NCBI RefSeq assembly: GCF_000510645.1
Contig: NZ_KI783301.1
Span: forward strand, 2,146,420 to 2,210,419
Source of the DNA: Thermicanus aegyptius DSM 12793
Lineage (GTDB): Bacteria > Bacillota > Bacilli > Thermicanales > Thermicanaceae
Length of the DNA: 64,000 nucleotides
Direction of reading: 5' to 3'
The notes beneath the pieces were generated by a model. The model was not told the origin of the DNA. It ran no database searches and saw nothing but the letters and a program-made list of their open reading frames with translations. Position 1 is the first letter of the stretch. The number at the start of each line of letters is the position of its first letter. Below, piece after piece: positions 29,279 through 62,690 of this stretch. The position numbers and the translations under genes are program-made.

Positions 29279-29414
29279 TTTGCCACCCCTAAAATAAAGA
29301 AATGTCTTTTGTTTTTATTGTACTATATTTTTTCCTTCTGTTCATCTCATGAGAAGGAAAGAGGCTATTACCGGAGAAATAATGAGGTATGTAAGAAAAA
29401 GGAGGAACACCCGA

Positions 29415-30590
29415 ATGAGAAGATTTATTGTGTTTTTCTCTATTTTTATCCTGTTTGCTGCATGGTTTGCCCAAACTGATCATGCCGAACCTTCTCAAAA
29501 TATGATTCGTGTTTATGTTGATGGAAACGAAATTGCTTTCGATGTATCTCCCAAAGTGGTGAATGGTCGGACCCTAGTCCCCCTCCGACGAATCTTTGAA
29601 GCGCTCGATTCAGAGATTACTTGGGATGGTGCAACACAAACCGTTACCGCAGTTAAGGAAGATACAAAGGTAGTTCTTACTGTGGGAAAGACCAAAGCCA
29701 AAAAAGGTGACAAAGAGTTTACTCTTGATGTTGCCCCAACAATAACCAACGGTCGGACTTTGGTTCCCCTTCGTTTTGTTGGAGAAGCCTTGGGTGCCAC
29801 GGTCGGGTGGGACGGGACATCGAAAGTGGTGACAATTGATTCCGCTCCTAAGAAGGAAGTCAAAGTGTTGGAGGTTGTTGACGGAGACACGATTAAAGTG
29901 GACTGGGACGGTAAAGAAGAAACCATTCGTTTCATCGGAGTGGATACTCCTGAAACCGTCCATCCTACCATTGGGGTGGAAGAATACGGAAAAGAGGCTT
30001 CTGACTACACCAAATCAAAGTTGAATGGACAAATGGTTCTTATTGCTAAAGATATAGAAGAAAGGGATAAGTACGGAAGATTGCTCGGATATGTATTCCT
30101 TGCAAATGGAACCTTTTTCAACGGAGATCTTGTTTCAAACGGATATGCGAATGTGTCCACGTTTCCGCCTAATGTGAAATGGGTGAAGCTATTTACCTTT
30201 TTGGAAAGTGAAGCGAGAAAAGCAAATCGAGGATTGTGGGGTTCTGAAAAAAAATCTCCCGACGCCACGAATAAAGGTGACACCGGGAAAGTAATTATAG
30301 AATCTCTTGATCTTAATGATGAGATTGTGATCATCAAAAATAGCGATACAAAAGATATAAACATGACAGGATGGAAACTGGTAAGCACAGAAGGAAATCA
30401 GACCTTCCAGTTCCCGGATGGATTCGTACTGAAAAAAGGAGCTTCTGTTAAGATAGTAAGCGGCAAAAATGCCGCCCCAAGAAACGGAGTGTTGGTCTGG
30501 ACGAAGGCATTTATCTGGAACAATGAAGGGGATAAAGCTGAGCTTTATGATTCGTCCGGGAAATTGGTTAGCCAGGCCGGGAAAAATTGA
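29415..30590 (+). CDS. Secreted thermonuclease with stalk and lamin-tail-like domains, 391 aa
   Basis: A signal peptide (RRFIVFFSIFILFAAWFAQT) is followed by two copper-amine-oxidase-N-like stalk repeats (NGRTLVPLRRIFEALDS and NGRTLVPLRFVGEALGA). A staphylococcal-nuclease domain follows, with VDGDTIKV, IRFIGVDTPET and ERDKYGRLLGYVF carrying the catalytic Arg/Glu/Arg pattern. A C-terminal beta sandwich (INMTGWKLVSTEGNQTFQFP) is lamin-tail-like. The ATG at 29415 follows AAAGGAGGAACACCCGA. It probably degrades extracellular DNA or RNA at the cell surface and stands alone on the plus strand. Confidence 0.85.
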   Translation: MRRFIVFFSIFILFAAWFAQTDHAEPSQNMIRVYVDGNEIAFDVSPKVVNGRTLVPLRRIFEALDSEITWDGATQTVTAVKEDTKVVLTVGKTKAKKGDKEFTLDVAPTITNGRTLVPLRFVGEALGATVGWDGTSKVVTIDSAPKKEVKVLEVVDGDTIKVDWDGKEETIRFIGVDTPETVHPTIGVEEYGKEASDYTKSKLNGQMVLIAKDIEERDKYGRLLGYVFLANGTFFNGDLVSNGYANVSTFPPNVKWVKLFTFLESEARKANRGLWGSEKKSPDATNKGDTGKVIIESLDLNDEIVIIKNSDTKDINMTGWKLVSTEGNQTFQFPDGFVLKKGASVKIVSGKNAAPRNGVLVWTKAFIWNNEGDKAELYDSSGKLVSQAGKN

Positions 30591-30604: not shown

Positions 30605-31040
30605 TAATCTTTCTCGCTCATCACCAACTTTATGCGGCGCTGGAGACCCCTGCTTTCAAGCAAAGGGAGGAAAGCGCCGCAAATTTATCCCCCCGTAAGG
30701 GGGAGGGGGCGTAAGCCCCCTACGCCCGTAAGGGTCTAGTGACGGGCTGGGGCAGACTCTGCCCAACCTCCCTCCTCGCCAATGTTACCGGGCGGCCTTC
30801 TCCCGGTAGCCAGGCTACAGCGTACCTCCCCCAGCTTCGCTTCGTGACCACCGGGTTGCAGGGTCTCGGGTCTGGAGGAGCATCCCGGAGTGCGAACCTC
30901 GGCTCTCCCCGATAACGTAGGACCCTCATCCCCTTATCCTTCAGGTCAGACCCTGAGGTTGGTCATAGAGAGGCTTTTTTTGGGCCTACGGCTGAAACCA
31001 GGAAGACAAGCCACCGGCTTCAGCCATGGGGTCTATGAGT
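30605..31040 (-). mobile_element. ORF-less HEARO-like element (non-autonomous IscB/IsrB-family relative)
   Basis: Read on the minus strand, this GC-rich block begins just after the type ISP R-M stop codon. It contains a GACCCCATGGCTGAAGCC hairpin region like the start of the IsrB omega-RNA, a long-range CATAGA/TCTATG pairing, the octamer ACTAGACC also present in that omega-RNA, and a run of GC hairpins. The right-end hairpin GCGCTTTCCTCCC...GGGGTCTCCAGCGC is nearly identical to the IsrB element end. GGTGATGAG follows. No coding remnant of IsrB was found, so it resembles a palindrome-ended derivative mobilised in trans. Confidence 0.65.
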
Positions 31041-31041
31041 T

Positions 31042-34000
31042 CTAAGACTTAGGCAATGCCTTTACAATTTCAATGGTCTCTACACTTACCCTTACAAGAG
31101 ATTTTATCATATTGACAATATGACGCGGATTTCCTTGCTCCTTCAACCACTCATTTGGATCATTCGTAATACCGCTTTTCTTGTCCTTTGTGATTTGGTA
31201 GCGTTCCATAACCCACTCGATCGGCGATCTTCCGTTTACAACGTATTCATATGCTTCAAGCTGAATGCCGCGCAGTGTAATGTGCTCATTGTAAACAATC
31301 GTCGTTTTGTCCGGTTTTCCGTCAGGTGTTTTTCCGAATCTCATTTTTTCGATCGTATACGTTTTTAGATCGTTCAAATCTCCTTTGATTTCCTCCTCCA
31401 ACGGCCAAGGCTCGACGGTTTCGTAGTTTAGGTGGAGCTCAGACAATTTACGCCCTGCACTGCTAAATGCCCAGAAATCTTTCGCCGAAGATACGAACGG
31501 AATGCGTGGAAGCGCCTTTTTTAGATCGTTTCGGTAACGTACCCGGTACTCCGGCGAATGCAGGAAGCCATAAACGAAGTAGAAGATATCCTCCTTTGTC
31601 ACGCTATCCCCGTACCTGCGGCGATATTCTTGTAGCGCCCAGTCGGTGATGTTCATACGGCGGATGTACTTTCGTCCGGATGGGGCGGTGCCGATGATTT
31701 CACCCTCCATTTTTCCTGCCAAGGCGTCGGTGTCGGAGACGGGTTCGTAGGTGTAGAGGGGAAAGGTCTGGGCACCACCGTCAATCATGTTTACGTCAGG
31801 GATGCAATCTACAATTAACGCAGTAAAATCTTTTGTTCCTCCAGCCCCCTTCATAACAATCGCGACGTTTTCCATGTCTGGTTCGGGGAAAATCTTGGGC
31901 AAGAGATAAGTAGCTCCGTTGAATACTTTGCTGAAGTACAGCCACTCTTTAACAAAAGGTCGGTATACTGATAGAGTGACAAATCCTACTTCTTCGAATC
32001 TGTGTGAAGAACCCCTTAAAAGTTCGCCTTTTAAATCTAGAGACCACCCGATTTTTCCGGGGTCATTATTTATTTGGAGTTCTAGATTGTCCTGCGTAAT
32101 TTTTCCAGCCCGAACCAGTTCAACGTGACGGTTAAATTCATCAATCATGCGGCGCATGTTGTCTGCCAACTCCAACTTGGAGAAGTTATAAACCCACGCA
32201 TCACGGTGTGTTTTTACCCCGCTGGAGTACAGCTCGAATATTGTCTCCTTATCCCCATTCTGCTTTGCCCCAATTACAGGGAACGCCTCAAAATCCTTGC
32301 TTCGCTGATTGATCCAATCATGCGCCTTATTCGGTTTGATGCGCTCCCACACCACACCGCCGATATGCCCGTACTCCTTCAACCGTGCCAGCTTCTCTTC
32401 GCGGCTGAGGTAGTCCCCGATGTCATGGTAGTAGATCTCCGCGGGGCTGGCCTTAGAAACGTCCTTGACGAGCACGAGTAACGCCACACCCGCACGGCTG
32501 CCTTGGCCGAAGATCTTTCCACCTTCTTTACGCCAAGCTTCACCTGAAAGGCGAGCGTTTCCACGAAGATTGAGGACGTAGATCTTCGCAAATTCTTCAG
32601 CGAGGCTCTTTCGGAGTCCACTGGCGGCGTTTCCGTCGAGAAAACCGCTGTTCGTCACGAATGTGATCACACCTTTGTCTTCAATCCGGTCAGTTGCCAT
32701 CCGAATAGCGCGGATGTACGAGTCGTAAAGGGAGTTCTTGTTTGTTGTCGATGAATAAGCTACATAGGTCTGGCTTATTTTCTCGTCCAGCTTGTTGTAT
32801 TTAACGGACTTAATCCCTAGGTTCTCCTCTTCTTGTTTGGCAAACCAAGGGGGATTAGATACGATCACATTGATCTTCGCTTCTTTTTGTTTTCGCATCA
32901 GTTCCGTGTACTGCTCCGGAAACAGGTCTGTCTCCATCGTCTCTTCAGACTCCATGAGTTGAAATGAATCGATCAGCAACAAATTCTCGAACGGCTCATG
33001 CTTTCCGGTGATGTCGAAGTACGTGCTTTCCACGTTGGCCAGAGCGATGTAATACGGAAGAAGCAGAATCTCGTTGCCCCAAATTTCGCCTTCGCGATAT
33101 TTTCGCTCCAATGCCTCTTTCGGGATCAGGTGCATCAATCTGGTAAGAAATGTTCCCGTACCGGAGAATGGTTCCAGGATTACCACGCCTTCATCGGAAA
33201 GGCTGAGGCCGAATTCGTCATGCAATACCCGATCGGCGCTTGCCACCAAAAAATCCACAACCTCTACAGGGGTATAGACGATCCCTAAACGATCGGCAAG
33301 TCTTGGAAAAGCTGATTTAAAGAACCGGTCGTATAAGCGTCGAAGAAAATCTTGCCGCTCAGCTTCCTTGTCCATGCCGCGTGCACGGTTTTTCACACTT
33401 CGATAAAAGCCTTCCAATGTGGCCGTTTCCTTTTCGATAAAAGCTTTAAAAACGGCAGCAACCCGTTCGAAACTTCCGGATACGGCATTCTGCTTAAGAA
33501 AATCATAGTTTTCGAATAAAGCGTCGAAGATCGGTTTTGTGATGATGTGCTGCACCAACATGCTCCGGGCGTCATCTTCTGTCACTGTCGGATTGGTAAT
33601 TTGACGCAATGACTCTACATAACCGGAGAATGCTTCGCGTGCCTCTTCTCCGAATTTACCATCGGATTTAAGCGCTTCATCAATATGACGTTCAATGCGT
33701 TGGGCTACCTCCGCAACGTCTTTCGCCCAGTTTTCAAAGTAATTTTTTTCACCTACTCGTTCCACCAGGACGCCGATAATCTTGCTTTTGATTTCTTCAA
33801 ATTGTAAAGGAAGAATACCTTGCGTATGATCCATGATTAAAATATCGTCTGATTCTTCATCCGAAGAAGACGATGACGTATTTCGTTTTTTCAGGACTAT
33901 CTGCCGCACACGCGCATCAAAACGGTCGTCGAGGGACCGTAAGGCGGATAAAATTTCCCACACTTTGCTAAATTCTTCGTTATTTCGGATCTGTACTTCA

Positions 34001-35763
34001 ATGTTTGTTTCTGGATTGACCACTACAGGAATGATGACATAACCGTATTCTTTCCCTGGCGCTTTTCGCATCACTCGACCAACAGCCTGTACTACATCTA
34101 CTTGGCTTTTACGGGGTTTAAGAAACACTACTGCGTCTAGTGACGGAACATCTATCCCTTCGGTAAGGACTCGTGCGTTTGAAAGTACCCGCACTTCTCC
34201 TTCATCCGGTTCCCCGCGCAGCCAATCTAAATGTTCTTTTCGTTCAGTAGCGGTCATGGTTCCGTCCACATGCCGTACTTTAAAGTGATGCGTTTTTTCG
34301 CCTGTTTTTTCGGTAAAGGCAGAAACGGTATTCTGGAACGCTTTGGCAAAATTTCTTGAGTCGCGTATCGCTTGCCCCGCGAAGACGACAGCACGACGCG
34401 CAGCGGGGATTTCTTCTCCGCGTACATGCCCGGATAAAGCACGCCACGTACCTATAATCCTGGTGGCGTCCACAACTTCCGGTGTATCAGGTTGGTTTAA
34501 ATATTCAAAGAGCTCGGTTTGAATCTCATTTTCACTTACCGCGAATACGATTACTTTATAGTCACATAAGTGTCCGTCGTCAACGGCTTGTCCGAAACCA
34601 TATCGGAAGAATTCTTTTCCGTAAATCGTTTCGTTATCCATCGAAAAATATTCGATTTCCATTTCTTCCAGCTTTTCTTTTAACTTTGGTACATATATTC
34701 TCGGTGTCGCCGTCATGTAAAGACGTTTTTTCCCATTTACGTTTTGATTGTTATGGACTTTGGTGTAATAGGATTCTTCGCCGTTTTTTACAACACCGGT
34801 TGTTCGATGCGCCTCATCTGCAATGATGAGATCAAATTCCGGAAATCCATTGTTTTGTGCCTCTTTGATTACATCTATGGAATGATAGGTGGATACCACC
34901 ACCGTCATCGAGTCCGTTTTTTCTTGCTGAATCGCCTTAACCAAATCTTCTGCATTGGTGGTCGGCGGAATCGTTAATACCGTTAGCCGGTCAATGCTAT
35001 CCTGGTCTTTTCCTACAGTCCGGTCTGATGTGACTGCAAAAACACGAAGCGGTATGTCTGCATCAACCAGCCACGCGCGAAGTGTTTGTTCAACTAATGC
35101 GATGGACGGTGCAAGGAATAAAACATGCCCGCCCTGGCCAACCTGTTTTTCGGCGATCTTTAAAGCCACCAATGTCTTGCCTGAACCCGGGGGCATGATG
35201 AGTTTTCCACGATCTGCTTCGACGAACCCTTCTGTGACGGCTTTGATTGCTTGTTCTTGATATGGCCGAAGGTTTTTCTTTTTTTCGTATGTGATATTTT
35301 CCGGATTATGCCATTGAAACGATTCCCAATCTATCCCGTAATTATTGACAATATCATATAGTGTAATAACCGTAACTTCTTTTTCTTGACCCTTAATGGC
35401 TTTTTCGGCGTTTTGGCCAAGCGGTGATGCAGTTACGATCATTCTTCTGGAAAATTCTTTGCGCCCGGATACCGCCAGAAATGTTTTAATATCATCGTAT
35501 GAAACTTTTTCTTCGTGGGATTTTGCTTGAATCGCCCAAAGTTTCCCAGTATCACGCTCTTTAGCTACGATATCGATTCCGAGATCCGGTTCGTCCTTGT
35601 CGCGATCCGGCCAGTCATACCATTTCCAAACGTCGATAAATTCTTCTTTGTAGTAGGGATCATTCTTCAAAAAGGCAATGACAAACCGTTCAAAAATTTC
35701 TCCTTTCTCTACCGTGTTGGTTGCTGTCTTTTCTAGTCTTTCCAGAAGTTCTTGTACGTTCAC
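31042..35763 (-). CDS. Single-chain type ISP restriction-modification enzyme (LlaGI-like), 1573 aa
   Basis: One polypeptide carries all functions. There is an N-terminal Mrr-like nuclease (DEPDLGIDIVAKERD...LWAIQAKS). A superfamily 2 helicase/translocase follows, with PPGSGKT, DEAH in LIIADEAHRTTG, and VVQAVGRVMRK. Then come a helical coupler and a gamma-type N6-adenine methyltransferase with ILEPFSGTGTFLTRL (SAM motif) and IVSNPPWF, and a C-terminal target-recognition domain. The length matches LlaGI/LlaBIII (about 1570 aa), and all motifs look intact. GTG at 35763 lies eight nt after AAGGAG. It would protect the element from loss or exclude foreign DNA. Confidence 0.93.
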   Translation of the reverse strand: MNVQELLERLEKTATNTVEKGEIFERFVIAFLKNDPYYKEEFIDVWKWYDWPDRDKDEPDLGIDIVAKERDTGKLWAIQAKSHEEKVSYDDIKTFLAVSGRKEFSRRMIVTASPLGQNAEKAIKGQEKEVTVITLYDIVNNYGIDWESFQWHNPENITYEKKKNLRPYQEQAIKAVTEGFVEADRGKLIMPPGSGKTLVALKIAEKQVGQGGHVLFLAPSIALVEQTLRAWLVDADIPLRVFAVTSDRTVGKDQDSIDRLTVLTIPPTTNAEDLVKAIQQEKTDSMTVVVSTYHSIDVIKEAQNNGFPEFDLIIADEAHRTTGVVKNGEESYYTKVHNNQNVNGKKRLYMTATPRIYVPKLKEKLEEMEIEYFSMDNETIYGKEFFRYGFGQAVDDGHLCDYKVIVFAVSENEIQTELFEYLNQPDTPEVVDATRIIGTWRALSGHVRGEEIPAARRAVVFAGQAIRDSRNFAKAFQNTVSAFTEKTGEKTHHFKVRHVDGTMTATERKEHLDWLRGEPDEGEVRVLSNARVLTEGIDVPSLDAVVFLKPRKSQVDVVQAVGRVMRKAPGKEYGYVIIPVVVNPETNIEVQIRNNEEFSKVWEILSALRSLDDRFDARVRQIVLKKRNTSSSSSDEESDDILIMDHTQGILPLQFEEIKSKIIGVLVERVGEKNYFENWAKDVAEVAQRIERHIDEALKSDGKFGEEAREAFSGYVESLRQITNPTVTEDDARSMLVQHIITKPIFDALFENYDFLKQNAVSGSFERVAAVFKAFIEKETATLEGFYRSVKNRARGMDKEAERQDFLRRLYDRFFKSAFPRLADRLGIVYTPVEVVDFLVASADRVLHDEFGLSLSDEGVVILEPFSGTGTFLTRLMHLIPKEALERKYREGEIWGNEILLLPYYIALANVESTYFDITGKHEPFENLLLIDSFQLMESEETMETDLFPEQYTELMRKQKEAKINVIVSNPPWFAKQEEENLGIKSVKYNKLDEKISQTYVAYSSTTNKNSLYDSYIRAIRMATDRIEDKGVITFVTNSGFLDGNAASGLRKSLAEEFAKIYVLNLRGNARLSGEAWRKEGGKIFGQGSRAGVALLVLVKDVSKASPAEIYYHDIGDYLSREEKLARLKEYGHIGGVVWERIKPNKAHDWINQRSKDFEAFPVIGAKQNGDKETIFELYSSGVKTHRDAWVYNFSKLELADNMRRMIDEFNRHVELVRAGKITQDNLELQINNDPGKIGWSLDLKGELLRGSSHRFEEVGFVTLSVYRPFVKEWLYFSKVFNGATYLLPKIFPEPDMENVAIVMKGAGGTKDFTALIVDCIPDVNMIDGGAQTFPLYTYEPVSDTDALAGKMEGEIIGTAPSGRKYIRRMNITDWALQEYRRRYGDSVTKEDIFYFVYGFLHSPEYRVRYRNDLKKALPRIPFVSSAKDFWAFSSAGRKLSELHLNYETVEPWPLEEEIKGDLNDLKTYTIEKMRFGKTPDGKPDKTTIVYNEHITLRGIQLEAYEYVVNGRSPIEWVMERYQITKDKKSGITNDPNEWLKEQGNPRHIVNMIKSLVRVSVETIEIVKALPKS

Positions 35764-35828
35764 TCTGTTCACTCCTTTTCTTTATTTTAAAGTCTTCTCT
35801 ATACATAAAGGGAAAATAGCTCCGAAAT

Positions 35829-58460: not shown

Positions 58461-61358
58461 TCACCTCACAATCCATTGTGTCCGTTTATACCGGACGATG
58501 AGCGGCTGCCGTTCAATCCAGTATCCGTCTTCGACCCATTCGTCATACTCTTGGTAAGAAATATTTTCCGTCGTGGTGTACCGCAGGAAGGTTTGTTTAT
58601 CCTGAAGTTTGTCCGGCGGGTATGCGATCGGATCGAAGGGGTCTTTAGGATTCGGTACATAGGAATCAAGCCGTGCGGCGATTGTCCGCGAATCCCGAAG
58701 ATTATTGACGTTTGTATCTTCCACATGACGCGCCATGATCTGGTTCGGCGTAAAGGAGAAGAACATTGCCGGACTTTGATCAGGATAGTAATTTAATTCT
58801 TCTTCCTGGAAATGACTGTTGATCTCGCCTGATCCCGTCCCTTTCATATTGGCGTTCTTGTCCAGTTTCAGGGCAGCCGTTACATAGAGAACGACGGGGT
58901 CTTTGCTGGGGTTTTGCGTTGCGTCCGGCATCTTCCAGAGGAAGGTTCCTTCCACCGTCTCACCCGGGTCTATAAATGTTTGGATCAACTCCGGCCATGT
59001 CCCGCCGTTTTCTTCTTTCAGTTTCATGTAGGGATCATCGTTAATCTTGGAGTGAAGGGTTTCAAAGCTTTCACCATCACTATTTGTTCCTGCGTAATAC
59101 GGCACATAAGAGTTGACCGTTTTCGGTTTCCCATCCTTATCAAGGTAATTACTAAAGGTGTATTCTGTACCGTAAAAGACGCCGATGGGTTTGCTTTCAA
59201 ATATCTTGGGGTGCCCCACGCCGTCCGGTTTGGTGCTTACGACATAATACCGAAGAGCAAGGCTTGTAATCGGCTGGTCGCTGTTATTGGTGATGGAATA
59301 CCTTGCCGTATAAATCTTGCCGGGGATGGCATAAGAGGGATCGGTAATCGCCTTGCTTTCATACTCACTCTTCCCTGCTCCAGCCAACGCATTGTCTACT
59401 TTCGGGGAGATTCCCGTGTCGGTAATCTTTACCGTTATTGCGTCGGGTTGTTTTACTTTATAGGGAAGAACGAGGATGTTCCGCCAATCTCCCTTAAAGT
59501 ACGCGTCTACAATGTCTTGTATAGAGGTGTTGTCGTCATAGAGTTGTTTCACTTCATTCTCGTACCCGCTCGACGGCCCAAAGACTTTTAAAGGGTCTTT
59601 CTTTCGGACCACCACATCTTCAATGGCCTTACGCGTTGTTTGGATAATCTGTTTTTGTGCGTCCGTATTCGACGGGAAAAGACGATCTCCATACAGAATC
59701 TTCGCCCGGCCATTTCCTACGTTTTGCGTGTGGAATTTGTCCAATTGTCCTGAGTTTTTCTTTGTTGTATAGTCCTTTTCGATCTTCCCGATAATTTTTT
59801 TGTAAAGATCGTCAGCTAAGGTATCGGCGATCGCTTCTTTATCAAAGAGGAATGTCATCCCTTTTGCGGTATAATCACTTTCCATTTGCTGGAGAATTTT
59901 TAGCGTTCCGGAATTATTGTCTCCGCCTTTTAATTTTAGAATAAACGCATTTTTCAGAGTTCCGGTTTTGTCATTTACGATATCTTCATAGAAACGGTAG
60001 GGATTTAAGATCGGTACGATCAGGATATACTGGGAATTTGTTGGTAAGGTTACGTTAATGAACGGAGTTGCGCTTACGGCGCTTGTGGGGATGATTTTAC
60101 CCGGCTGTTGCATCAGCACATCACGAATAGAGATTGTGTCGATTTCGTTTGGGTATCTTTCACTTTTTGGCATATAGCTTGCTACAAAGACCATATACGG
60201 CACTTCTGTTGCCGCAAATACGGCAGGATTTCTCCGTTCCACCTTAAATTCATCCTGGTGACTGTTGTAATAGTCGAGGTTAGGGAAATATGCTTTTGAA
60301 GTATTGATGGAGCTAAAGAGGCGAATCGTCAGGGTGTCGTTTTGCTCCAGGATGTCGAGATTTCCCACCACCGAATCGCTTTTCTTCTTGTCCCCGGAAA
60401 GCATCGTCTTGGAAGCGGCGACCGAGTATTCGCTGATCCCGACGTTGGTGTAGTGGTTGAACCAATAGGTGGCATTCTTTTTCAGGACGTGAACATCTTT
60501 GTATTGCACCTCAGCCATAAACTCCAGTTGCACCGTTCCTTTCTCAATCCCTGCACCTGCGCTTCCTGTTGGTTTAAAGCCCGTAAAGCCCGTAGAGCGG
60601 AAGTTTGTTATCCCATAGTTTGTAGCGGTTTGTTTCGTAGAACTTATCCCTCTGTAGATAACTTCATAGGTATCGGGGCCATTTGTGTATTTCCCTTGCC
60701 AGTAGAAATAGCCGTTGGTCGTTTCCTTATTGATGAACGCGGTGATCCCGTCGAGGAAGTCCCAGGAGATGTAGGGGACTTCGACTTCTCTCCCGCCAGA
60801 TACGGGCTCCCGCAATTTAAAAACATATTGATCATAATTTTGGTCAACGGTTACATTTCCTCGACTGTCTTTGTGCGTGATGACGTTGTTCAATATCCAC
60901 CAATAGGAATGGTACATATCCTTTACCAAATCGGTTGCCTGCGGGACACCCGCCTCCCCGCTTAAAGTGGCGTCTACCCCGGGAGGGGCAGTAATCTTTG
61001 ATTCGTTTATCAAGCGGAGAGACCAACCATTATCTTTATTCCCTTTGTCATCAATCCGGATATATAGCCCTGTCCCTCCTTGTTCTGTTACCGTAACCGC
61101 CTGAACGGGGTCTGTTAAAATGTTGTATTTGGCGATGTTTTCATTCCCCATTCCGGCGATTTTTTGAAATTTCCAGCTTGGATTCGAACTAAAATAGTTG
61201 TGATTGGGGTAGCTGGAGAGATTAATGTCGAATTTGTTATTACTATCAAGGCTGCCTCCGAAAACAGGGAAGGAGGCGAGAAGCGAAAAGAGAAGGACCA
61301 AAACCAAAGAGGCGCTTATCCATCGTTTGTGTCGCAAAATCGGTTTCATCTTCATCAT
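58461..61358 (-). CDS. Large secreted protein of unknown function, 965 aa
   Basis: A signal peptide (WISASLVLVLLFSLLASFPVFGG) starts a long exported protein with beta-rich domains and a helical middle (about 480-640). I do not recognise the family; similar large exported proteins accompany Tad-like clusters in thermophilic Bacillota. The start is ATGATGAAGATG at 61358. The IsrB element ends just four nt upstream, and the only ribosome binding site, AAAGGAGG, lies inside that element behind its terminal hairpin. Confidence 0.7.
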   Translation of the reverse strand: MMKMKPILRHKRWISASLVLVLLFSLLASFPVFGGSLDSNNKFDINLSSYPNHNYFSSNPSWKFQKIAGMGNENIAKYNILTDPVQAVTVTEQGGTGLYIRIDDKGNKDNGWSLRLINESKITAPPGVDATLSGEAGVPQATDLVKDMYHSYWWILNNVITHKDSRGNVTVDQNYDQYVFKLREPVSGGREVEVPYISWDFLDGITAFINKETTNGYFYWQGKYTNGPDTYEVIYRGISSTKQTATNYGITNFRSTGFTGFKPTGSAGAGIEKGTVQLEFMAEVQYKDVHVLKKNATYWFNHYTNVGISEYSVAASKTMLSGDKKKSDSVVGNLDILEQNDTLTIRLFSSINTSKAYFPNLDYYNSHQDEFKVERRNPAVFAATEVPYMVFVASYMPKSERYPNEIDTISIRDVLMQQPGKIIPTSAVSATPFINVTLPTNSQYILIVPILNPYRFYEDIVNDKTGTLKNAFILKLKGGDNNSGTLKILQQMESDYTAKGMTFLFDKEAIADTLADDLYKKIIGKIEKDYTTKKNSGQLDKFHTQNVGNGRAKILYGDRLFPSNTDAQKQIIQTTRKAIEDVVVRKKDPLKVFGPSSGYENEVKQLYDDNTSIQDIVDAYFKGDWRNILVLPYKVKQPDAITVKITDTGISPKVDNALAGAGKSEYESKAITDPSYAIPGKIYTARYSITNNSDQPITSLALRYYVVSTKPDGVGHPKIFESKPIGVFYGTEYTFSNYLDKDGKPKTVNSYVPYYAGTNSDGESFETLHSKINDDPYMKLKEENGGTWPELIQTFIDPGETVEGTFLWKMPDATQNPSKDPVVLYVTAALKLDKNANMKGTGSGEINSHFQEEELNYYPDQSPAMFFSFTPNQIMARHVEDTNVNNLRDSRTIAARLDSYVPNPKDPFDPIAYPPDKLQDKQTFLRYTTTENISYQEYDEWVEDGYWIERQPLIVRYKRTQWIVR

Positions 61359-61415
61359 AACCGGCGCAGGAGACCCCTGCCTTCAGGCATGGGGAGGAAT
61401 GCGCCTTCCCTCCTT
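61359..61415 (-). repeat. Right end of the IsrB element: SD, hairpin, target ATGA
   Basis: On the minus strand AAAGGAGGGAA is followed by a hairpin (outer arms GGCGCA/TGCGCC at 61405-61400 and 61368-61363, inner CCCC-TGCC/GGCA-GGGG), then GGTT and ATGATGAAG. The hairpin is the terminal palindrome expected for IS605-superfamily elements. The ATGA after it matches the target motif of IscB/IsrB elements and is at the same time the start codon of the next gene. Confidence 0.75.
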
Positions 61416-62435
61416 TCAAATCACCAATTTGTAAAACCAGCTCTGATGGAATACCTTTTGACATTTTGCCGGATCGGCATGTTGCGTCACACGCTTGTTG
61501 GCAAAATCAAAGCTGTGCAGGCTAAGTTTCCCCTTCGTTGTCCCACCCGTCCGGTACAGGTTGCCTTCGTACCAGACAACGGTGTTTTTCCTGAACCCAC
61601 ACGCCACCGATTCTCCATAGGGCTTCCTTATGCCCCCTTTCTCCGGCTCCAGCCGGTGCAACTGCCTGCGTGCAATCTCCGGCCTCCGCCATACCCCGAA
61701 CGATGTGACTTCCGTCCGTTTGGTCCGGATCACCAGCCAACAGAGGACAAAGCCGTCAACGGCTTGAGAATAAAAGCTGTGCTCGCCTTTCTTGCCCGTC
61801 TTTGTGAGCCCAAGTGTTTCCCTCGCCTTTGCCGTTTCTTTCGCGTCAAACAGCCGCAAGTCACCTCTTCCCTCCAGGAATTGATACAGCTTCCGTTTGT
61901 TTTCCATCGTCCAGGTGAAGTACTCACGGCCCTTCACCCCTTTCAGCCTGTTACCGTCAATCCGCATATCTTCTACGGCAATTTTCGAAATTGGATAGAT
62001 AGCGAATAAGTAAGATAGAAACTGTATCCGCATGTCTACCTTTGCCTTGATCGACGGTGGAAGCCACCCTTCAGGACGTTTACGATTGGAAAAACGCTTG
62101 GGCCGTCTTCTTGTCTTGCGGAACCGCCTGGCACGGCGCATATTCCTGCGCGTTTCCATCTTGTCTTTGATCCGGTTTTTCACCACCAACATGCCAGAAA
62201 ACTGCATCTGCTCCTTTGTGGCGATTGCCACCCCGTCATAATTGGCTCCCGGATCAATTCCTAGTGCCATATCTTGTGTATGTTTGCTCGTTGGTGTGGT
62301 TAACTGAATAAAAAAGATTCCGGTTTTCGTCCACTTTTTCACAGCCGCGCCGCTTCTTAGCAGCTTTCTCGCTTTTGCAGGCGTACACGGCATAAGCGGT
62401 GTTCCATCCATGTGTACAACAGGTACTTTCCGCAC
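61416..62435 (-). CDS. isrB: IsrB-type RNA-guided nickase (HNH-less IscB relative), 339 aa
   Basis: IsrB is the ancestor-like relative of IscB and Cas9; with an omega-RNA it nicks DNA. The PLMP domain (DGTPLMPCTPAKARKLL, PLMP at residues 13-16) is followed by RuvC-I LGIDPGANYDG (Asp61), an arginine-rich bridge helix (residues 96-112), and RuvC-II IAVEDMRID (Glu155). RuvC-III HSFYSQAVDGF (Asp227) comes only 70 residues later, with no room for an HNH domain. All three catalytic acids are intact. The GTG at 62435 follows AAAAGGAGGCACGAGTACC; an ATG 27 codons upstream would lie inside the RNA. No transposase is present, so movement would rely on a TnpA in trans. Confidence 0.9.
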   Translation of the reverse strand: MRKVPVVHMDGTPLMPCTPAKARKLLRSGAAVKKWTKTGIFFIQLTTPTSKHTQDMALGIDPGANYDGVAIATKEQMQFSGMLVVKNRIKDKMETRRNMRRARRFRKTRRRPKRFSNRKRPEGWLPPSIKAKVDMRIQFLSYLFAIYPISKIAVEDMRIDGNRLKGVKGREYFTWTMENKRKLYQFLEGRGDLRLFDAKETAKARETLGLTKTGKKGEHSFYSQAVDGFVLCWLVIRTKRTEVTSFGVWRRPEIARRQLHRLEPEKGGIRKPYGESVACGFRKNTVVWYEGNLYRTGGTTKGKLSLHSFDFANKRVTQHADPAKCQKVFHQSWFYKLVI

Positions 62436-62439
62436 GGTA

Positions 62440-62690
62440 CTCGTGCCTCCTTTTGGAGTTTTGTGCCCTTCGACCATGCCTGTCAGGCTTAGATGTGCAA
62501 AAACACATCGTGGCATTCAACGATTCTGCCGCATATCCCCAGACTAGGGCGTGCAGCCGGGAGGTGCTTGGTAGCCCGTCAGGGCGTAGGCTTTCGCCTC
62601 GGTCTAGTCAACGGTTGCCTTGGTATCGTCATCCCAAGCTCACGCCTTCAGGCGTGGGGTCGTTGACCCTCCTTATCTCTTGGAATCAAA
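62440..62690 (-). ncRNA. Omega-RNA (HEARO RNA) of the IsrB element
   Basis: The segment between the terminator at 62.7 kb and the isrB start is densely structured on the minus strand. It has ACGCC-TGAA-GGCGT, a long-range GTCAACG/CGTTGAC pairing (about 62668 and 62610), ACTAGACC followed by an AGGC-GAAA-GCCT hairpin, and a GCCCTGACGGGC stem. This matches the position and style of HEARO RNAs, which are encoded just upstream of IscB/IsrB. The guide would be the roughly 16 nt upstream of the scaffold (about 62670-62690). Confidence 0.78.

Follow-up and report, generated by a model that had tools for sequence, protein, structure and literature searches.

The window, i.e. the whole stretch of 64,000 nucleotides of Thermicanus aegyptius DSM 12793 that was analysed, contains an ORF-less element of 415 bp (30624-31038, minus strand) of the HEARO/omega-RNA kind, in which the whole omega-RNA and both transposon ends are kept without an effector gene. 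An earlier note on this DNA had proposed an ORF-less block after the restriction-modification (R-M) gene, which is borne out with the refined limits given here. We consider it likely that the element is a non-autonomous derivative of an IscB element which spread in ORF-less form, is used in trans where IscB is present, and is an inert and slowly decaying passenger in this genome. The features of the region are the following; a stroke marks a junction between element and flank here and below, and the IsrB element is the one located at 61.4 kb of the window.

29349-30590, plus strand: gene for a protein with copper-amine-oxidase-N, SNase and lamin-tail domains, convergent, on the element's other side
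30621-30624, minus strand: right junction GG/TGA, an NTGA-like target-adjacent motif; the TGA is common to the complete ORF-less copies and the IsrB element
30630-30686, minus strand: remnant of an IscB C-terminus, 18 codons and a stop (KFAALSSLCLKAGVSSAA, then stop), by comparison with the Ammonifex IscB
30636-30678, minus strand: right-end hairpin of IS200/IS605 type, 81% identical to the Ammonifex IscB element and 38/44 to the IsrB element
30689-30734, minus strand: linker of three hairpins (CCCTTACGGG; AGGGGGCTTACGCCCCCT; CCCCCTTACGGGGGG), about 46 nt, occupying the place of the IscB ORF
30745-30768, minus strand: omega-RNA 3' stem-loop (GGTTGGGCAGAGTCTGCCCCAGCC), helix 14 of the consensus fold
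30764-31038, minus strand: omega-RNA (HEARO) core, beginning TCATAGACCCC, from the RF02033 match (57.4 bits), the consensus fold and covariation
31039-31058, minus strand: flank that would serve as source of the guide, some 16-20 nt on the 5' side of the omega-RNA and of the HEARO match
31042-35772, minus strand: type ISP R-M gene (Pfam Type_ISP_C, ISP_coupler, Mrr_cat_2, ResIII), upstream of the element and co-oriented

The element starts three bases beyond the R-M stop codon (31042-31044), a TGA follows its other end, and it fills almost wholly the gap to the stop codon of the convergent gene (30588-30590). The empty site was reconstructed as CCTAAGTCTTAGAAC then TGA, i.e. the R-M stop followed by AAC/TGATGAG. 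The flank 5' of the omega-RNA consists of the final codons and stop of the R-M gene, then AAC, and by analogy with the known IscB and IsrB systems it would serve as guide. No promoter-like site was found within or around the element; read-through from the R-M gene would transcribe it. The RNA fold of the element has a z of -3.5 compared with shuffles. Given its very stable GC-rich hairpins and its place in the convergent gap, the block might have acquired a role as a structured 3' region or as a two-way transcription barrier between the R-M and nuclease genes, and copies in other genomes also lie just 3' of genes in the same orientation. However, no terminator-like site was found within the block and the transposon anatomy explains the whole sequence, which makes such a role very improbable.

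The covariance search that had been suggested for the block gave a match to RF02033 over the full model (1-211) at 31039-30764 on the minus strand, with 57.4 bits and an E value of 6.8e-11 in the local scan (7.3e-11 in the genome-wide scan), though under the curated gathering score of the family, 83 bits. As a consequence of this threshold, the default Rfam scan does not list the element. The gathering score is also missed by the omega-RNA of the Ammonifex plasmid IscB element (68.0) and by that of the IsrB element (68.2), and it is passed by the other ORF-less copies (90.5, 96.2 and 100.9). A third, weak HEARO match of 27.5 bits is present in the genome outside the window (G000:C1:2225482-2225633; L005 1501-1652), as a short left-end-like stretch followed by a terminator-like hairpin, and is perhaps a further truncated omega-RNA element.

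The closest known architecture is that of an IscB element. In a blastn search of plasmids, the sole relative was pADEG01 of Ammonifex degensii, in which an annotated IscB gene (WP_012818242) lies directly after the omega-RNA. The left 314 nt of the element are 87% identical to this IscB element and the right 62 nt 81%, with about 1.34 kb of IscB gene absent between the two matching ends. The right end translates into KFAALSSLCLKAGVSSAA and a stop, compared with KIAALSSPHLKVGASSAA and a stop at the C-terminus of the Ammonifex IscB, i.e. the final 18 IscB codons. The earlier statement that no IsrB coding remnant is present is thus to be amended, as a remnant does exist but belongs to IscB. Over its body the element exhibits 80-87% identity to IscB elements.

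The likeness to the IsrB element is of another order. The right-end hairpins are indeed nearly identical, as had been noticed from the letters (86%), but blastn of one element against the other returned this hairpin and short matches at chance level, nothing more. The octamer ACTAGACC occurs in both elements as reported, at 30733-30740 here, 3' of the omega-RNA, whereas in the IsrB element it falls within the omega-RNA, in its 5' part. Since same-strand comparison of the two elements gives 13 common octamers and opposite-strand comparison 9, one common octamer is meaningless, and ACTAGACC was discarded as a common signal on account of its non-homologous places and this chance-level sharing. 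Both ends matching an IscB element and a body unlike the IsrB element point to derivation from an IscB element; judged on sequence, the element is an internally deleted IscB element and no particular relative of the IsrB element, its kinship to the latter being that of the same transposon superfamily. The proposal of a non-autonomous, ORF-less HEARO relative therefore holds, without the special kinship with, or descent from, the IsrB element.

A search for other copies in the genome of the window, at the DNA level, found none: only the element itself and the right end of the IsrB element were recovered. The 61 genomes of class relatives yielded a single short match, between the left end and an IscB element of G005. 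The same arrangement is present in more distant bacteria. The genome containing pADEG01, which we take to be that of A. degensii, carries on its chromosome an ORF-less copy 86% identical over the whole element, just 3' of a gene named nusB from its sequence, at the nusB end and co-oriented with it. G232, a genome of another family of the same phylum, has a contiguous full-length copy (84%), placed in the same orientation after an ORF that lies ahead of a hairpin; across part of its omega-RNA this copy resembles other IscB copies. In G135 the ORF-less layout was found at five loci or more. All ORF-less copies have in common the linker, in which three GC-rich hairpins join the omega-RNA to the right end; its identity to the present copy is 84-88% within the lineage and 80-81% for G135. 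In the aligned IscB elements, this place is taken by two hairpins followed by the ORF. The G135 omega-RNAs are of another lineage, being 78-79% identical to Desulfofundulus IscB elements and 58-62% to the element of the window; the likeness of the linker could reflect an old layout, an exchange of the linker, or two origins under one and the same constraint.

Given this arrangement in A. degensii, G232 and G135, the ORF-less form is a dispersed, non-autonomous element made of the omega-RNA only, and, from the presence of gene-less copies in distantly related bacteria, the guide RNA seems to travel alone. The joined flanks of the IsrB element are N/TGA, as are those of the four ORF-less copies that are complete, in agreement with NTGA, the motif of DtIsrB (PMC9581776). 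In A. degensii, if the G that precedes the left end is taken as part of the element, the TGA would by our own reading stop nusB right at the junction.

Several observations were made beside these copies. Ammonifex thiophilus SR (L052, 2725-2989) has an omega-RNA with neither ORF nor right end; it is very close to that of an intact IscB element which this genome also carries. A Moorella mulderi MAG has an intact IscB element whose right end is followed, some 160 nt further on, by a 60-nt piece of the left end of an omega-RNA (L012, 1897-1956). One G135 copy (L077, 1475-1980) sits inside the loop of an inverted repeat, with joined flanks GAGCCCTGA...TCAGGGCTC. On pADEG01 (L007, 3340-6215), a gene for a TnpB-like transposase begins at the right end of the intact IscB element. 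In viral contigs, neither the core 29-mer nor the 16-nt guide sequence was matched (0 matches each); the linker pattern had 19 matches, and for three of these the likeness to the element was short and weak and was judged low-complexity.

Consensus structure and covariation were computed on nine omega-RNAs. In the consensus structure 97.6% of cells are paired, compared with at most 50% when the partners are slid. Pairs changed on both sides number 15, versus 5.8 in shuffles (0/500 as high), with a covariation score of 0.184 versus 0.116, and in the 3' stem-loop GGTTGGGCAGAGTCTGCCCCAGCC the relatives show substitutions on both sides of the stem. The pairs broken by the private substitutions of each ORF-less copy were then compared with simulations, in a test which is small and relies on an approximate ancestor: 1 pair is broken in the A. 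degensii copy versus 6.4 expected (1/2000 simulations as low), none in the G232 copy versus 8.2 (0/2000), and 6 in the copy of the window versus 7.9 (455/2000). This contrast between copies persists with a structure derived from the IscB copies alone; when copies are left out one at a time, one intact IscB copy likewise falls short of significance. The HEARO scores agree with the pair test, the three copies elsewhere scoring 90.5 or more and the copy of the window 57.4.

The fold of the window's copy appears to be decaying. As 86 of its 92 pairs still form, the fold is damaged rather than lost. Changes from C to T and from G to A account for 18 of the 32 changes in this copy, such as a drift toward less GC-rich sequence would give. 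If the ORF-less state had more than one origin, most of the private changes could be older than the loss of the ORF.

Such decay, together with the single copy in this genome and the partial or right-end-less relatives in A. thiophilus and the Moorella MAG, is what would be expected of a plain local relic, in which an intact IscB element lost its gene by chance deletion, the likeness to other copies is incidental and the ORF-less form was never functional. Nevertheless, independent random deletions cannot have produced one and the same linker, with the identities given above, at a corresponding position in genomes that are unrelated, and the ORF-less copies elsewhere keep their pairing and exceed the Rfam cut-off. 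We therefore regard a local relic as unlikely.

The possible partners of the RNA differ between the genomes. IscB is encoded in the genomes of A. degensii, G232 and G135, and A. degensii has IscB genes with similar omega-RNAs. In the genome of the window, family and protein searches found IsrB but no IscB. The IsrB seems intact and has as its nearest match DtIsrB, whose structure has been solved (8dmb); G135 was rejected as the source of DtIsrB, to which the IsrBs of that genome are about 55% identical. The IsrB element (61358-62668, minus strand) is apparently inserted between the ribosome-binding site and the start of a 965-aa ORF (58461-61358), its joined flanks being AAGGAGG/TGATGAAGATG. 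The HEARO match overlaps the first 19 or so codons of the IsrB gene, and its start codon is thus probably later than the listed ATG. There is one Y1 transposase gene in the genome of the window, and it is a candidate only for acting on these ends.

With an intact IsrB at hand, with similar right ends followed by TGA in both elements and with most omega-RNA pairs still formed, the guide RNA of the element might, as the earlier note supposed, be used in trans by IsrB, which would nick matches to the end of the R-M gene. But the element's omega-RNA belongs to the IscB lineage, blastn aligns only short pieces of it with the IsrB one, pair breaking reaches chance level in the window's copy only, and a promoter-like site was found neither in nor around the element. 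In view of the missing promoter-like site and of a pairing constraint no higher than chance, nothing favours this use, which we judge slightly less probable still than a local relic.

The preferred reading, an IscB-element derivative that spread without its ORF, can be set out as follows. A linker of three hairpins has taken the place of most of the IscB gene, while the whole omega-RNA, both end hairpins and the final 18 IscB codons stayed. The ORF-less form, now dispersed over hosts from different families, would move as a unit by means of a single-strand transposase acting in trans. Where the host bears IscB, the RNA would be read from the upstream gene and the guide taken from the flanking DNA; the omega-RNA would load IscB in trans, resulting in the cutting of empty sites followed by TGA (NTGA). 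By analogy with IscB systems and standalone omega-RNAs, the cutting of empty sites may favour retention of the element. In the genome of the window, without IscB and without pairing constraint, the element most likely persists as an inert passenger, lying between two genes that converge.

Compared with known systems, the element has in common with the intact IscB OMEGA elements, as on pADEG01, a homologous omega-RNA, the right end, the C-terminal codons and the TGA after the right end; these elements differ in having two hairpins, a ribosome-binding region and the IscB ORF where it has the three-hairpin linker. With the IsrB element it has in common the right-end hairpin, the following TGA and a HEARO match (68.2 bits for the former), but the IsrB element has an omega-RNA of a different lineage and an effector gene. 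Palindrome-associated transposable elements (PATEs) of Haloquadratum are ORF-less, have IS605-type palindromes at their ends and arise by loss of the core (PMC3119063). The present element likewise has IS605-type subterminal palindromes at both ends, a deleted core and no transposase; the PATEs of that paper are fused ends, whereas here a full structured guide-RNA gene is retained. According to Altae-Tran et al. (2021), as cited in PMC9581776, there are standalone omega-RNAs that work together with IscB; these too lack an adjacent effector gene. Compared with them, as far as that citation describes them, the present case is a defined element with both ends, a common linker, several host families and a host without IscB. 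In the literature searched, with the primary 2021 paper lying outside it, no omega-RNA-only element was found that combines both ends with a structured linker common to copies from several host families; the parts are already known, and what would be new is their combination.

The element is present without an ORF in four genomes, of which three encode IscB and the fourth, where it was searched for by family and by protein, had none. This is a natural experiment, which asks whether IscB guide RNAs are selected apart from the nuclease. More tentatively, and at less than even chance in our estimation, ORF-less omega-RNAs with the dedicated three-hairpin module could constitute a separately maintained class of mobile RNA, hitchhiking on a resident IscB in trans to hold or spread their sites, persisting with IscB and decaying without it. 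A caution also follows, namely that a gene-less HEARO RNA near an IsrB need not be that IsrB's. IscB is an RNA-guided DNA cutter and the ancestor of Cas9, and a guide RNA acting in trans would be an example of the stage by way of which CRISPR guide RNAs may have become independent of transposons.
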